DNA of 62,449 nucleotides from Cellvibrionales bacterium. Lineage in GTDB: Bacteria; Pseudomonadota; Gammaproteobacteria; Pseudomonadales; JAHEIH01. Positions 50,636 to 56,168 of this stretch are shown piece by piece. The stretch is from the NCBI GenBank assembly GCA_024639455.1, contig JAHEIH010000027.1, forward strand, positions 76,928 through 139,376, in the 5' to 3' direction. The notes beneath the pieces are model-generated. The model made no database searches. It was not told the DNA's origin and saw only the letters and a program-made list of their open reading frames with translations. Each line of letters starts with the position of its first letter. Within the stretch, counting starts at the first letter, position 1. Position numbers and translations under genes: made by a program.

Positions 50636-51922
50636 CTATTTAATATGAAAAATGAGCTTATCGTCGATGTTATTTTGAATATCCCTGAAACGGCGCAGCA
50701 TTTGCTCTGACACGTGGGTGTGGGCTGTAGCCAGCAGCAAACCATGGCAAGTGAGCACATCGTAGCGAAGCTCGTCACCTGCTGACATTTCATCTAGGGT
50801 AATACCCTGCAGACGAGATGGAACGCCTACGTCGTCGAGTACAGCGATACAAATTTCTAATAGGTCGGGATCGTACTGAGTACTAGTACCCTGGCGCAAC
50901 ATCGACACGGCATCGACATGACTCATAGCACCACCTGGCCCGCCGGATGACACCGCCATGTTGTAATCCAATAGGAGGCGTAGGAGACGCGAACCAAGTG
51001 GAATAGCATGTTCAGTAAGGCCAGCAGGAAAGCCAGTACCATCAAAATTTTCACCGTGGTGTTCAATAATGGCTGCCGTTTCTGCTAAGGCATCGAGCGG
51101 AGTCAACATATCCACGCTCTCTCGTGGATAGCTTTGAAGCAAATTCAATTCACTGCTGCTGAGTTCACTAACGGGGCGACTCACTAAATCAGCGGGCAAA
51201 CAAAGCTTACCAATCTGAACCAACTGTGCGGCCTGCTGAACACACTCGCGCTGATTTTCATTCATATATAACTTAGCTGCACAGATATCAACATGGAAAA
51301 GTAGATTTTCAAGGAACTCCGCTGGCAAATGACAATGGCGAGTCGACAAACTTGCGAACATCTTAATGAAAACAGTAAAATTGGCGCGCAATTCCTCCTG
51401 CTCTACATTAAGAAAGGCAACGGTCTTTTCCAATTGGCGGTTGGTGCGACGCACTTGATCGTTGAGCGACATCTTGCGCGCCCTCATCGATTCGTAAGAC
51501 TCTTTTAAACTCTCAACTTCTTTGGCCTTTTCGTCATCGCGCAACTTCGAATGCAACAAACTCATAATCCGCTCAACGAACTGGCGGTTATCCCAGGGCT
51601 TTTCGATGTAGGCGTGGATCTTTCCTTGATTGATGGCGCGCGCGGTGGCCTCTTGATCAGAATACCCCGTCAACAGCACTCGTCGACTTTGAGGAGAAAA
51701 CTTCGCTGCCGCCGCTAACAGTTCAGCGCCGTCCAATTTTGGCATGCGCATATCTGAAATGATTAAATCGTAGGCGTTGTGCATGACCATATCCAACGCC
51801 TGATCTGAGTCAGAGGCAAGATCGACGATAAAATCTGAGCTGCGCAGCAGACGCTTTAGGGCATACAAAACCTCTACTTCATCGTCTACGCAGAGGATAC
51901 GGGCCACCAAATTGTCACTCAT
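50636..51922 (-). CDS. Response regulator with degenerate HD-GYP domain
   Basis: Starting at MSDNLVARILCVDDE (GGAAT upstream), this is 428 residues. The receiver domain (about 5-120) is complete: acidic pocket DDE, phospho-acceptor Asp57 in IISDMRMP, Thr in LLTGYSD and Lys108 in EKPW. A coiled coil (about 130-180) leads to an HD-GYP-like domain (about 205-390) whose key residues are changed: HD is Val235-Gln236 in LVQIGKL, HHE is HHG (288-290) and GYP is GFP (297-299). It is therefore unlikely to hydrolyse cyclic di-GMP and may bind it or act by protein contact. It is monocistronic. Confidence 0.9.
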   Translation of the reverse strand: MSDNLVARILCVDDEVEVLYALKRLLRSSDFIVDLASDSDQALDMVMHNAYDLIISDMRMPKLDGAELLAAAAKFSPQSRRVLLTGYSDQEATARAINQGKIHAYIEKPWDNRQFVERIMSLLHSKLRDDEKAKEVESLKESYESMRARKMSLNDQVRRTNRQLEKTVAFLNVEQEELRANFTVFIKMFASLSTRHCHLPAEFLENLLFHVDICAAKLYMNENQRECVQQAAQLVQIGKLCLPADLVSRPVSELSSSELNLLQSYPRESVDMLTPLDALAETAAIIEHHGENFDGTGFPAGLTEHAIPLGSRLLRLLLDYNMAVSSGGPGGAMSHVDAVSMLRQGTSTQYDPDLLEICIAVLDDVGVPSRLQGITLDEMSAGDELRYDVLTCHGLLLATAHTHVSEQMLRRFRDIQNNIDDKLIFHIK

Positions 51923-52012
51923 GTAATATTCCAAGCAGTTGCGTTATTACTAAAGAACTATAGCCCTTTAACGCCTAGAGTCAACAATATAGCAACCAAA
52001 AAAAAGCAGCGA

Positions 52013-52312
52013 TTACGCTGCCTTGGTAGAAATAACAGAGTTCTCTGTGCCTTGATCATTGGGGATGTAGGCATCCGCCGCATAATCATTTTCCCACTCG
52101 GCATCATTCAGCAAATACTTAAACTGGAATTCAGCATCGGTAGGCAAGCGCATCTTGAGCTTGTATGAGCCAGACTTCTTATCGAACTTCATCACTTCTG
52201 GCGTCCAATCATTGAAATCACCCGCCAATTTAGCCGAGTTGACATCGTCCCGAGAAAATTCGAAAACCACTTCTGTTTCGGGCTTAGTTTTAAAAAACTT
52301 CTTACTTAACAT
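52013..52312 (-). CDS. Stand-alone CBM48/isoamylase N-terminal-like protein
   Basis: From MLSKKFFKTKPETEVVFEF this is 99 residues. GGGAG lies nine bases upstream, and a longer open frame adds unconserved residues. It has the early-set immunoglobulin-like fold of glycogen-binding modules: VNSAKLAGDFNDWTPEVMKF, then LPTDAEFQFKYLLNDAEWEN. Such modules bind alpha-glucans or act as regulatory subunits (as in AMPK beta). Here there is no catalytic domain and no glycogen gene nearby. Function unknown; it may tether another enzyme to storage glucan. Confidence 0.85.
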   Translation of the reverse strand: MLSKKFFKTKPETEVVFEFSRDDVNSAKLAGDFNDWTPEVMKFDKKSGSYKLKMRLPTDAEFQFKYLLNDAEWENDYAADAYIPNDQGTENSVISTKAA

Positions 52313-52533
52313 GGATAGGCACTCCCTAGTCTTGTATCCAAACAAGCTATATTTTTTAACAGATAGGGTGACATTGCCATGCATGGTGCAGTGAATACGT
52401 ATGCGAAACGCTGCTTCAGTCGAGCACAAAAGCGAGCAACCTCTAATAGAAGGTTTTTTTAATAAAAATTAGCAGATAGCCCATCACTTACTACACTTGA
52501 ATAGCTGTCACAAAGTTAACAGGACATCGATTA

Positions 52534-53820
52534 ATGACTAGCCATATATTTCGCTCAGCCGTGTTTTTAGGCAGCCTCACCATAACGGTCCCCGCTTTGG
52601 CCGACCACGATTACGATGCAGAGTTTGCCTACCAGCAGATAAAAGCTCTACAGGCTGAAAACTCGGGTATAACAGAATTCGACATGCGCTTCGCACTGGT
52701 TGCCATATCGGTACATCGTTACGACGAAGCCATTTTTGCCCTCGAACGTGTTCTTGAGGCGCAACCCAACAACGGGCGCGCTCGCACAGAACTCGCCCGT
52801 TGTTACTACGAAACGGGGCAATACCACCTAGCACGAACCCTTTTCAAACAAGTGGCCGACAACGAATCTACGCCAGCGACAGTGCAGCACAACATAAACT
52901 ACTATCTGCACGAAATGGATAAGCGCGGCAGCCAGTTTGATTTGCAGAAGCAATTTTATGTAGAAGCAGGTCTAGGTCGTGACAGCAATATCAACGCAGG
53001 TAGCGACCTCAGTAGTATAGACATCCCCAATTTGGGGACTGTTACCCTAACGGAAGCAAGCCTCGCCCAGGATTCCAATACCCAGCAAGTCGCTGCAGGA
53101 GCCAAATTGTATAAAGCCACCAGCCGCTTTAAGGGTTGGTCGCTGCAGACCGATGTGCAACAGATCAACACCCCTGACAACGACAACTTCGACCAAGGGC
53201 TCGCTTCGGTGGCGGGCGCCTACCACTGGCAGAATGGTAGCGATCGCTACCGCACTGGCCTGCAATACCAACAACTCAGTCTCGGCGGCGAGCAATTCTT
53301 TAATAGCTTAGGACTCGCGGCACAGTGGCACCGGACCATTAGTGAGCGACTCGTCGTAGGCATGATCTTGCAATGGCACGATGTCGACTTTGATACTGGC
53401 AACAACTTCCGCGATCACGACCGGCTTTTGCTTGGCGCCGATGTCATCTTCGCGAGCGGGCAATGGCGCCATCAATTGGGAAGCTTTGTCGGCACAGAAC
53501 GCCCCAGCGACACCCAATACGACTATGCACTCCGAGATGTCATGTGGGGCCTTAACTACCGCCTTAGCTACATGCTTAATGCCAAAGTGGTGCCCTATCT
53601 TTCTGCCCAATATGCTTCTAGCGACTACGGCGATACCCACCCTGTATTTGCCCTGCAACGCCACGACAGTTTACGTAGCTTAGAAGCTGGCTTGATATGG
53701 CAACCCGCCCGTGGACTAACGGTCAACCCCAGTTTCAGCGATACCCGCAACGACAGCAATGTCGAGGCCTATAGCTATGACCGCGATCGAGCGCAGGTCA
53801 AAGTTCGTTACAACTTTTAG
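52534..53820 (+). CDS. TPR-containing outer-membrane beta-barrel protein (SLAM/DUF560-like)
   Basis: This 428-residue exported protein has a signal peptide ending ALA before Asp24 and a periplasmic TPR domain (about 35-130) with VHRYDEAIFALERVLEAQP and YYETGQYHLARTLFKQVAD. From about residue 145 to the end a beta barrel runs from FYVEAGLGRDSNINAGSD to the terminal aromatic in VKVRYNF. TPR followed by a barrel opening with DSNIN is the layout of surface lipoprotein assembly modulators (DUF560; type XI secretion). Barrel strands show the alternating pattern (YRTGLQYQQLSLGG, KVVPYLSAQYASSDYG). It is 11 bases before the FecR-type gene, its likely exported partner. Confidence 0.8.
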   Translation: MTSHIFRSAVFLGSLTITVPALADHDYDAEFAYQQIKALQAENSGITEFDMRFALVAISVHRYDEAIFALERVLEAQPNNGRARTELARCYYETGQYHLARTLFKQVADNESTPATVQHNINYYLHEMDKRGSQFDLQKQFYVEAGLGRDSNINAGSDLSSIDIPNLGTVTLTEASLAQDSNTQQVAAGAKLYKATSRFKGWSLQTDVQQINTPDNDNFDQGLASVAGAYHWQNGSDRYRTGLQYQQLSLGGEQFFNSLGLAAQWHRTISERLVVGMILQWHDVDFDTGNNFRDHDRLLLGADVIFASGQWRHQLGSFVGTERPSDTQYDYALRDVMWGLNYRLSYMLNAKVVPYLSAQYASSDYGDTHPVFALQRHDSLRSLEAGLIWQPARGLTVNPSFSDTRNDSNVEAYSYDRDRAQVKVRYNF

Positions 53821-53831
53821 GAGATAACGAC

Positions 53832-56168
53832 ATGCGTTTCCCTCTGAATTCATTCGTGGCCGCCCCCATCGCTCTGGCCATCGCCATCACCGCCATGCCC
53901 TTGCAAGCCAACACCAAAGCCGGCAAGGTGATACTAAGTAAGGGCGAAGTTAACGCCACACTGGCGGGCAACGAGCGTGCCCTGCGACGTGGTAAGCCAA
54001 TCTTTGAAGGCGACATGGTGAACACGGGCAGCGGCGCCATGCTGCAGATGAACATGCGCGATGATGGATTAATTTCACTGTCAGAAAACAGCGTGTTCAG
54101 TGTTGAAAGCTACCGCGACGCCGACGGCGACAGTGAGGACAGCGTCTTGCTCAATATGGTGGAAGGCGGCTTCCGCGCCGTGACCGGTGGTATTGGCCAG
54201 AAAAACCCAGCCGCCGTTAAAGTGCGCACCACCGTGGCATCCATTGGTATTCGCGGCACCGGTTACGAAGTGTTTGAATACAACGGTTCGCTATTCGTGT
54301 CGATACTATCGGGGAGCGTCGAACTTAGCAACAAGGCGGGCAGCCTACTAATTGGTGAAAACGAAGAATTCAATTTTGCCCGTGTCGACAGCGACAGCAG
54401 CCTCCCTGTGGGCCTGTATGCACTGCCAGCCGATGTGGCCGCCAACAATCCTTTCTTCGCCTCGATAGACGTCCCTTATGAAGCGGCGTCCTATCGGGTT
54501 CCACTGAATCAGCTGGTATTAAACAGCTATCCCGTTATGAGCCTCACCCCCATCAACCCTGCTGAGAACCCAGACAGCCTAATCTTTACCCCATTGCCAA
54601 CGAACAATACTGACGTTACTGATGGTAGTAGTGACCCCACTACCGACGGCAGTACCGACACACCAGTCGACGAAGATATCGGTGGTGACAATACTGCGCT
54701 CAGTGCCGCCGAGGTTTACGCTACCAGTGTCGCGGCACACGTTCTGTTGCCCGACAGGGCACAACCCTACAGCCTGTCTGCGCGCAGCAATAGCGCGGGT
54801 GATATCGTGCTTTTGGTTGACAGCGACGCCACCGAGGCGAGCTACCAAAGACTGATTCGCCCCAGCAGTGCTGGCCCGGCCGCCAGTTACCCTAAGACGA
54901 TGCTGTTCGACAGTGGCACCACATGGGGCGTATGGCTCGCCAGCGCCACGACACCAGCGACCCAATACAGACTCAATGACGGTTCGCTGACCACCACGAG
55001 CATCGAAGACACTATCTACTGGCTGTCGACAACGCCAGCGATAGGTCTTGCTGGAACCTATACCTTTTTGAGTACCGGTGCCTATATTGGCACATCGACA
55101 GAAGGAGACATCGACGCGCTCAGTGCTAGTATGCGAGTCAATTTCGATAGCGCAGATGTCAGCAACGGCTTTTTGATCGTCGACAGCGGCAGTTATCGTT
55201 GGTCAACCCGTTTTAACGGCACGCTGACAACTGGAGCAAACGGCGATCTGGGCGGAGACTTCTCACTCAGCAGCGACAATAACAGTAGCGGCGTATTGAG
55301 TGGCTACTTTGTCAAATCCGATGAGATTTTCTTCACCGGTGCCTTCAGTGTTAGCGATATCAATAACGCCACCGCGCGTGGCTTGCTGGCCATGGAGGGT
55401 TACCAAACCCTGACCGTATACGGTGGGGATGGCACCAACCTAGATCAATACGGTACGTTAGTGGCGTTTGAGGGCTCCGCGCTACTCCATGGCCCAACCG
55501 CCCTTGCACCACTGACTACCACAGAACTCGGCTACAACAGTAGCGATGCCGATGGCACCCTAGCGGGTTGGTTTGTCGAGCTAAACAATGCCAATCCCGC
55601 GAGCGGCTACCCTGTGCAAAAAACCGCTTTGAGCGACAATACTTACTGGGGCGTGTGGAATGCAGACAGTAGCAATACCGCCAACCTTCGCTATCGTACA
55701 AGCGAAAATCGCGAATACAACAGTCCCATTGAAGCAGCGGTATATTGGATGAGCACGGATTCTATGGCACTTACTCGAACCGGTAGTGCCACATTTGCCA
55801 GCACTGGCGATTTCGTCGGCTCGAGCAATAGTGGCGCCGTCACGAGTCTGACGGCGTCCTTTAGTTTCGACTTTGACAGCGCAGCGATGACCGGTGGGCA
55901 ATTGGACTTGATGGCTGGAGGCGATGCGTGGACATTCGATATCGCCAATGCCGCTAGCACTGAACTGAATATGGACAATGGTTATTTTTCAGTGCGTCAG
56001 ACCCAAGTCAACGCCGAATCAAACAACGGTGTGTTTGGCGCCATTGAAGGTTATTTCGTTGGTTCTGAGGCCACCAGTATTTCGGCGGCGTTCGGCCTAT
56101 TCCGCCAGGGCGACAGTAATTATCTAGATTCGGTGAACGGATTATTCAGTCTACAGGAAAGTCGTTAG
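53832..56168 (+). CDS. Exported FecR-domain protein with two tandem TbpB-like beta-rich repeats
   Basis: This 778-residue protein has a signal peptide (to about residue 26, ending LQA) and no lipobox. A FecR-type beta domain (about 30-195) contains KVRTTVASIGIRGTGYEV. A Thr/Asp/Ser linker (about 255-285) is followed by two homologous beta-rich units, about 315-522 and 550-776. Both carry WGVW, an IEDTIYWLSTT/IEAAVYWMSTD pair, ATFASTGDFVGSS/YTFLSTGAYIGTS, and a GYFV-x5-9-AF segment. This recalls the TbpB-type barrels of type XI secretion cargo. AGGAG before the ATG and the short spacer imply co-translation with the outer-membrane barrel gene. Whether it stays on the surface is unknown. Confidence 0.82.
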   Translation: MRFPLNSFVAAPIALAIAITAMPLQANTKAGKVILSKGEVNATLAGNERALRRGKPIFEGDMVNTGSGAMLQMNMRDDGLISLSENSVFSVESYRDADGDSEDSVLLNMVEGGFRAVTGGIGQKNPAAVKVRTTVASIGIRGTGYEVFEYNGSLFVSILSGSVELSNKAGSLLIGENEEFNFARVDSDSSLPVGLYALPADVAANNPFFASIDVPYEAASYRVPLNQLVLNSYPVMSLTPINPAENPDSLIFTPLPTNNTDVTDGSSDPTTDGSTDTPVDEDIGGDNTALSAAEVYATSVAAHVLLPDRAQPYSLSARSNSAGDIVLLVDSDATEASYQRLIRPSSAGPAASYPKTMLFDSGTTWGVWLASATTPATQYRLNDGSLTTTSIEDTIYWLSTTPAIGLAGTYTFLSTGAYIGTSTEGDIDALSASMRVNFDSADVSNGFLIVDSGSYRWSTRFNGTLTTGANGDLGGDFSLSSDNNSSGVLSGYFVKSDEIFFTGAFSVSDINNATARGLLAMEGYQTLTVYGGDGTNLDQYGTLVAFEGSALLHGPTALAPLTTTELGYNSSDADGTLAGWFVELNNANPASGYPVQKTALSDNTYWGVWNADSSNTANLRYRTSENREYNSPIEAAVYWMSTDSMALTRTGSATFASTGDFVGSSNSGAVTSLTASFSFDFDSAAMTGGQLDLMAGGDAWTFDIANAASTELNMDNGYFSVRQTQVNAESNNGVFGAIEGYFVGSEATSISAAFGLFRQGDSNYLDSVNGLFSLQESR

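Follow-up and report, generated by a model that had tools for sequence, protein, structure and literature searches.

In a 62,449-nucleotide stretch of a Cellvibrionales bacterium (GCA_024639455.1, contig JAHEIH010000027.1), referred to below as the window, two adjacent genes encode an outer-membrane protein resembling the surface lipoprotein assembly modulators (SLAMs) of type XI secretion and an exported protein that joins a FecR domain to two homologous units. The original prediction described the pair as a SLAM-like exporter together with a FecR protein carrying TbpB-like repeats, and this reading is supported by the present analysis. Both open reading frames (ORFs) were confirmed with the sizes and spacing given in Table 1. 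Read by eye, both proteins open with an apparent Sec signal, and the FecR protein is apparently non-lipidated, no lipobox cysteine being seen.

Table 1. Features of the gene pair; positions are those of the window and residue numbers those of each protein.
Feature	Position	Strand	Basis
SLAM-like (DUF560/SlipAM, type XI secretion) outer-membrane protein, 428 aa	52534..53820	+	Pfam, model, profile-profile match
Helical tetratricopeptide repeat (TPR) region, residues 29-135	52618..52938	+	Pfam TPR_19 above cut-off at 61-110; model helices
Predicted 14-strand outer-membrane barrel, residues 138-428, last residue Phe	52945..53817	+	DSSP on model
Intergenic gap, 11 bases	53821..53831	+	AGGAG motif before second start codon, overlapping or preceding gap
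Putative FecR-anchored tandem-barrel cargo protein, 778 aa	53832..56168	+	ORF, Pfam, model
Apparent Sec (signal peptidase I, SPI-type) signal peptide, ~residues 1-26, without lipobox cysteine	53832..53909	+	By eye
FecR domain, ~residues 27-205	53910..54446	+	Pfam FecR; PupR and 5ix9 structure matches
Predicted disordered Thr/Asp/Pro-rich linker, ~residues 206-294	54447..54713	+	pLDDT <50 at 215-243, 245-288
Unit 1, ~residues 295-530: handle and predicted eight-strand TbpB/fHbp-like barrel (strands 409-525)	54714..55421	+	Model, structure matches
Unit 2, ~residues 540-778	55449..56165	+	Homology to unit 1

The first protein matches Pfam SlipAM (PF04575) with 37.6 bits against a cut-off of 22, over profile positions 2-288 of 288, and TPR families are matched as well, which bears out its description as DUF560-like. 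Its structural model, made with 49 homologues, has a predicted local distance difference test score (pLDDT) of 93.4 and consists of a helical domain followed by a 14-strand barrel; the strands were counted by hand from DSSP, excluding a short hairpin at 161-171. In SLAMs the TPR part is periplasmic and the barrel has 14 strands. When 50 members of the SLAM-family alignment, which included 49 of the relatives' SLAM stretches, were scanned at E 0.001, TPR_19 was matched by 42, SlipAM by 11, BBP2_2 by 11, TPR_Slam by 7 and DUF2860 by 6. Profile-profile comparison separates what these family scans mixed: the profile of 50 homologues matched canonical SLAM barrels (same order) with E 2.5e-24 over 285 columns, compared to E 3.1e-11 over 235 columns for the BBP2_2 barrel control. 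For this reason the transporter is filed as a divergent SLAM.

The two units of the second protein, aligned at about residues 330-507 and 572-756, are 35% identical over 189 positions (E 6e-23), so that their homology, already proposed from the sequence, stands. Because the full-length cargo alignment gave unit 2 no aligned relatives, only residues 1-540, covering unit 1, were modelled. The model has a pLDDT of 77, with the FecR domain mostly above 85, the linker at 215-288 below 50 and the handle at lower confidence, and it places eight barrel strands of unit 1 between residues 409 and 525. The first Foldseek match of this model was the TbpB C-lobe (E 4.5e-5) and the second the FecR-type domain of PupR (5.2e-5), followed by many fHbp chains. 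In VIA, the cargo model matched NHBA (Z 12.9, root mean square deviation (rmsd) 2.5, 112 residues), the fHbp C-barrel (Z 12.9, rmsd 2.9, 120 residues) and the TbpB C-lobe (Z 12.0, rmsd 4.3, 185 residues). A profile of 46 units compared with PDB sequences found TbpB best (E 1.5e-5) and NHBA/Gna2132 next (0.025), and at E 0.1 or better Pfam TbpB_B_D was matched by 11 and NCBIfam slam_lipo by 10 of these 46 units. NHBA is a SLAM cargo. TbpB and fHbp are described as such in PMC8406197 and PMC12282271 (statements on cited papers refer to their accessible parts throughout). In the window's own cargo no curated Pfam or NCBIfam cargo model reaches its cut-off: unit 1 matches no family of either database at E 0.1, and unit 2 matches the NCBIfam family 'Slam-dependent surface lipoprotein' below cut-off (E 0.011). 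Since the window's units lack a curated match, their identity as barrels is taken from the family profile and the structural model. Thus the TbpB-like eight-strand barrel of the original prediction was recovered in the model of unit 1, and unit 2 would likewise be such a barrel by homology.

Pfam FecR (PF04773) matches residues 62-164 of the second protein with 44.4 bits against a cut-off of 24, confirming the FecR-type domain. The fold is shared with the FecR/PupR anti-sigma factors, and PupR aligned with the cargo model in VIA with Z 14.8 and rmsd 3.2 over 136 residues. Foldseek ranked 5ix9, annotated as a 'cell surface anchoring domain', 44th, with a target-length TM-score of 0.76, E 0.015 and an rmsd of 1.0 across 62 columns; 5ix9 was not among the best 50 VIA rows, which carries no weight against the match. 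When a profile of 27 FecR members was compared with PDB sequences, the same entry (there an 'antifreeze protein', which we take to be part of a giant adhesin) came first with E 1.2e-4, ahead of anti-sigma factors at 0.027. The resemblance to the anchoring module of LapA and the ice adhesin lies at about residues 40-94. Among the 27 members, NCBIfam retention_LapA was matched by 24 (best E 3.4e-9), LipL45 by 23 and the FecR regulator family by 7, at E 0.01 or better; for the window's member, every NCBIfam match is below its curated cut-off. Taking these matches together, the domain is FecR-like along its full length and anchor-like in its first part. Between FecR domain and barrel, the relatives have a stretch with a median of 134 residues (range 0-813).

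FecR anti-sigma regulators have an N-terminal cytoplasmic sigma-binding part and a transmembrane helix, and the known FecR/PupR domains act in the periplasm. In the window protein, neither a sigma-binding domain nor a transmembrane-helix part was found as a Pfam domain at E 1, and the FecR domain comes after what by eye is a signal peptide. The translations of 49-60 kb, read by eye with only some neighbours family-searched, showed neither a sigma factor nor a TonB receptor beside the pair. We rejected an anti-sigma role on these grounds. On these two kinds of neighbour the original prediction agrees with the translations; to its statement that no regulator is adjacent there is one exception, a response-regulator-like ORF at 50636-51934 (by eye).

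To survey relatives, we used two sets of genomes. The order set comprised 390 genomes of the same order, 77 of which match the FecR protein at E 1e-5, with a total of 109 FecR places; SlipAM is matched at E 0.001 in 51 of the 390. Sixty order loci were examined; 70 of the 109 places and the window's own were covered, and 38 weaker or second places lay outside, in a tally that was completed by hand. The named set came from an alignment scan over GTDB genomes and consisted of the best 80 of 556 relatives, rich in Pseudoalteromonas; an earlier scan of named genomes with the window protein as sole query had given no matches. Its genera include Saccharospirillum, Thalassolituus, Hahella, Reinekea, Oceanobacter, Oleispira, Pseudoalteromonas, Psychrosphaera, Alteromonas, Cocleimonas, Thiothrix, Methyloversatilis and others. 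In six-frame profile searches, a SLAM homologue lay directly upstream on the same strand for 62 of 71 barrel-bearing FecR frames in the named set and 27 of 33 in the order set, and a coarser count based on ORFs gave 63/73 and 30/38, respectively. Ten loci are common to both sets, and there is overlap of L204-L206 with L095, L097 and L066; with identical FecR stretches removed, the merged count is 80 of 93 distinct barrel-bearing FecR proteins. As the pair recurs in relatives at this rate it is more than a chance neighbourhood, and the two genes are usually adjacent, as had been expected. The usual distance from SLAM to cargo is a few tens of bases, with start positions estimated. The 13 misses are 8 proteins of marine metagenome-assembled genomes (MAGs), one near a contig end (L078, the same as L154), 3 tandem copies in L066 that lie further behind the SLAM gene of L206, and L121, where a SLAM-like gene lies ~2 kb downstream of the FecR protein. 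Most of the marine MAG loci (L146, L156, L159, L171, L178, L191, L199 and L200) have a similar neighbourhood by eye.

The cargoes vary in architecture. The number of detected barrels ranges from 1 in most to 7 in a cargo of 2366 aa (L204), and a cargo of 2477 aa (L205) has several; of 77 cargoes, a chosen part went into one of the alignments. In five order loci (L063, L067, L070, L073 and L085), the SLAM protein itself has an N-terminal FecR domain; L124 and L142 are named-set copies of two of these fusion loci. A tree of FecR domains, from which stretches below 140 aa and near-copies were excluded, puts the SLAM-fused domains in one clade with support 99/97. In L107, L110 and L111 the SLAM gene follows a FecR gene that stands alone, and in the tree these copies form a clade of their own, next to the cargoes of the same loci. 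We therefore rejected the idea that a transporter-borne FecR domain is an ancient, shared trait. The window's cargo has a long branch and an uncertain position. As further arrangements, L066 together with L206 (G048) has a single SLAM gene followed by four FecR-barrel paralogues in tandem, and in L087 (G353:C47) the FecR part and a four-barrel part are in separate adjoining ORFs, with an in-frame stop reported there. A stand-alone short FecR protein without SLAM was seen in the window's genome (L118, contig C22) and in its sister genome (L119, C319), with similar gene order by eye.

Large proteins accompany the pair in part of the named set. In 32 of the 80 named loci, the pair has an ORF of 1000-2416 aa at a distance of no more than 57 bases, in most cases with a lipobox as judged by eye; the ORF is downstream of the pair in Alteromonadales and upstream of it in Cocleimonas. 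Scans of two of these proteins (L161:9193-14907 and L143:2692-6651) gave Big_9 and cadherin-like repeats. In its domains this is reminiscent of the adhesin BapP, whose secretion route PMC12153261 counts among the outstanding questions.

Genes for CHASE2 cyclases are found near the FecR/SLAM loci more often than expected by chance. Among the matches listed, a CHASE2 match lies within 10 kb of at least 32 of the 109 FecR places (29/77 genomes), when uniform random placement in a 3.5-Mb genome gives a mean of 0.74 and at most 6 in 2000 draws. In the named set, CHASE2 occurs in the examined stretch for 29 of 73 barrel cargoes and in 32 of 80 loci. By genome, at least 59 of the 77 FecR-matching genomes have CHASE2 among the matches listed; for the 37 of these with strong FecR hits, a cut set by us at about E 1e-21, the proportion is 35/37 against 112/353 of the others (Fisher p 2.8e-14). 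Counted by hand per genus, it is 22/24 against 41/118 (p 3e-7). Five CHASE2 proteins, four from FecR loci and that of the window's genome, were family-scanned, and all five have a class III cyclase domain. L110 has a match to class-II phosphodiesterases, and L161 has a gene with the metallo-beta-lactamase fold. An adjacent CHASE2 gene in the window's own genome was rejected, because the sole match there is on contig C27; this protein is 45% identical to the one beside the pair in Thalassolituus. The same genome has four matches to cyclic nucleotide-binding (cNMP-binding) domains. The view that FecR is structural and not anti-sigma is partly supported, by the lack of a matched anti-sigma domain and by the adhesin-like first part, but a signalling role may still apply in view of the CHASE2 clusters.

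We consider it probable that the two genes form a type XI secretion pair, with a cargo that a FecR plug in the periplasm retains and that possibly reports to cyclic AMP (cAMP) signalling. A SLAM-like transporter and its dedicated non-lipidated cargo would both cross the inner membrane via Sec. The TPR-barrel protein would then insert in the outer membrane and deliver the C-terminal TbpB-like barrels of the cargo to the surface; export of these barrels by this SLAM is the step in which we have high confidence. The N-terminal FecR domain would remain in the periplasm as a plug, the disordered linker would thread the pore, and the cargo would be anchored without lipid in the manner of LapA-type adhesins held by their retention module. 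The fusion of FecR to the N-terminal side of the transporter, its likeness to the adhesin anchor, and the linker point to this placement, which we hold to be plausible, if somewhat short of probable. One to seven barrels in series would form a surface arm that varies in reach. Placed on the periplasmic side, the FecR domain might pass on the state of this arm to an inner-membrane CHASE2 adenylate cyclase. This coupling is suggested by the gene clustering, by known clusters of FecR and CHASE2 and by the NsrA precedent, and we put it forward tentatively.

Several observations weigh against this explanation. SlipAM is matched by just 11 of the 50 SLAM-family members, a number equal to that for BBP2_2, and the best 50 Foldseek rows for the transporter model include no entry named SLAM and consist of BcsC, PelBC, porins and further barrels. 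For the window's domain, retention_LapA scores 28.3 bits against a curated cut-off of 50, and the NCBIfam surface adhesin Lsa33 matches more members (26/27) than retention_LapA. The LapG-type motif does not appear to be conserved: of 89 cargoes, 18 have a pattern loosely similar to TAAG. A SLAM gene is upstream of just 19 of 45 FecR frames without a detected barrel, the eight marine MAG proteins have barrels and no SLAM within ~8 kb upstream, and the sister genome (75% complete) has no SlipAM match. Lastly, the tests of CHASE2 co-occurrence correct for descent to genus level at most, and the only CHASE2 match of the window's genome is on another contig (C27), not adjacent to the pair. As to LapG, the window's genome has one LapG-like peptidase (C93) in the region C27:112844-122626, ~5.5 kb from Big_9-bearing frames of 854 and 1459 aa, and these are possibly a separate LapA-type adhesin system. 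With the motif apparently not conserved and this peptidase beside other frames, LapG-regulated release of the window's cargo was rejected.

When compared to known systems, the pair shares with type XI secretion of TbpB, NHBA, fHbp and hemophilin-type cargoes (PMC12282271, PMC8406197) a TPR and barrel transporter beside a protein with an eight-strand barrel at its C-terminus, and non-lipidated cargoes are known there too. The differences are that a FecR domain here replaces the lipid anchor or handle-type effector, and that tandem barrels up to 7, FecR-transporter fusions and CHASE2 neighbours occur; the word 'FecR' is absent from the accessible main text of both surveys. The adhesins of the LapA and ice-adhesin type, which use type I secretion, have a similar globular N-terminal module with repeats after it, and LapA is tethered through its N-terminal retention module (PMC12153261). 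They differ from the present cargo, which has a Sec-like signal, a neighbouring SLAM in the apparent place of a type I secretion system, a retention_LapA match below cut-off and apparently no conserved LapG motif; no type I secretion gene was seen by eye at 49-60 kb. Clusters in Campylobacterota (PMC9239204) combine a CHASE2 adenylate cyclase, a phosphodiesterase, a FecR-domain outer-membrane protein and a TPR protein. The combination of FecR, TPR and CHASE2 is common to both, and the phosphodiesterase gene of L110 and the metallo-beta-lactamase-fold gene of L161 are parallels; the likeness is by description, a SLAM or TbpB-like barrel not being named in the accessible text. In Sinorhizobium meliloti, the outer-membrane barrel NsrA lets CHASE2 cyclases respond to an outside protein (PMC13001267), a likeness again by description, as 'FecR' and 'TPR' are absent from the text accessible to us. 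A FecR-domain protein is also among the cAMP-regulated genes of that species (PMC5498481), and the MtxA paper reports a gene for a TPR protein followed by a CHASE2 cyclase gene, with 'FecR' absent from its accessible text. The FecR/PupR anti-sigma factors differ from the window protein in the signal peptide, the sigma-binding domain and the neighbours described above. Our literature search, with most subscription papers and supplements outside its scope, found no SLAM with a FecR cargo and no retention module with FecR, and a co-mention of FecR and surface lipoprotein assembly modulator only in the lysochelin paper, as far as accessible.

An extension of the plug model, which we regard as rather doubtful, would make the type XI system an outside-in sensor. 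The SLAM would pass the chain of barrels through the outer membrane, and the FecR plug would root it in the periplasm by docking on the transporter, at its FecR or TPR parts. A pull or a bound ligand would be read by CHASE2 and turned into cAMP on surface contact. The giant cadherin-like protein of the Alteromonadales and Cocleimonas clusters could be the adhesive partner.

Other explanations have to be weighed against a cargo held by its FecR plug. In one of them, the protein is an ordinary type XI cargo that is surfaced or released whole, the FecR domain serving as the variable effector at the N-terminus, with a ligand or matrix as its binding partner. Predicted cargoes do consist of a variable N-terminal effector, a pedestal and a C-terminal barrel (PMC12282271), the apparent absence of a lipobox is like that of soluble cargoes, and the Lsa33 matches point to a surface adhesin. 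We nevertheless find it unlikely, given that the SLAM of one lineage carries FecR on its N-terminal, TPR side, that FecR resembles an adhesin anchor, and that FecR/PupR domains are periplasmic. Less probable still, and in our view improbable, is a periplasmic signalling module without export, in which the FecR, TPR and barrel proteins sense the envelope for CHASE2 and the TbpB-like units stay in the periplasm. The CHASE2 clustering in our survey agrees with it, as do the Campylobacterota clusters (PMC9239204) and a LysM-FecR protein with a CHASE2 kinase in Burkholderia (PMC5192318). Opposed to it are the transporter and barrel profiles, which are those of a SLAM and its cargo, and the cargo of up to 7 barrels in 2366 aa, which fits a surface arm better than a sensor. 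That the TPR-barrel protein is a polysaccharide exporter of the BcsC/PgaA/PelB/EpsL kind with the FecR protein as an accessory, as the first Foldseek match (BcsC, with porins next), the 11 BBP2_2 matches and an EpsL match (E 4.4e-8, residues 345-428 alone and far below cut-off) might suggest, was rejected as very improbable, since this evidence is weaker than that for a SLAM: SlipAM is matched over its full length above cut-off, SLAM is the better profile match, the partner carries SLAM-cargo barrels, and no recurring polysaccharide operon was seen beside the pair in the loci read by eye, where no dedicated search was made. At greater distances there are sugar-related ORFs, such as the glycosyltransferase-like one that lies ~2.6 kb from the cargo in L130.

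Around the pair in the window, a small protein encoded at 52013-52429 on the minus strand, divergent from the SLAM gene, has weak CBM48/CBM20 similarity below cut-off. A scan for promoters and terminators was not clearly above chance: shuffled sequences gave 3.8 promoter-like sites against 2 here, and 4.7 terminator-like sites (sd 2.5) against 7. In the sister genome, a MotB homologue stands at a contig end for one flank, and the gene of the other flank has no close match.

Known type XI cargoes are anchored by lipid or released, so a FecR plug with 1 to 7 barrels exported in series would, if true, be a third way. Such anchoring would also suggest a role for FecR-domain proteins that lack anti-sigma parts. 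The clustering with CHASE2 offers a candidate for what CHASE2 receptors sense, and in Alteromonadales the pair suggests how the neighbouring giant cadherin-like proteins might reach the surface, a route open to testing.

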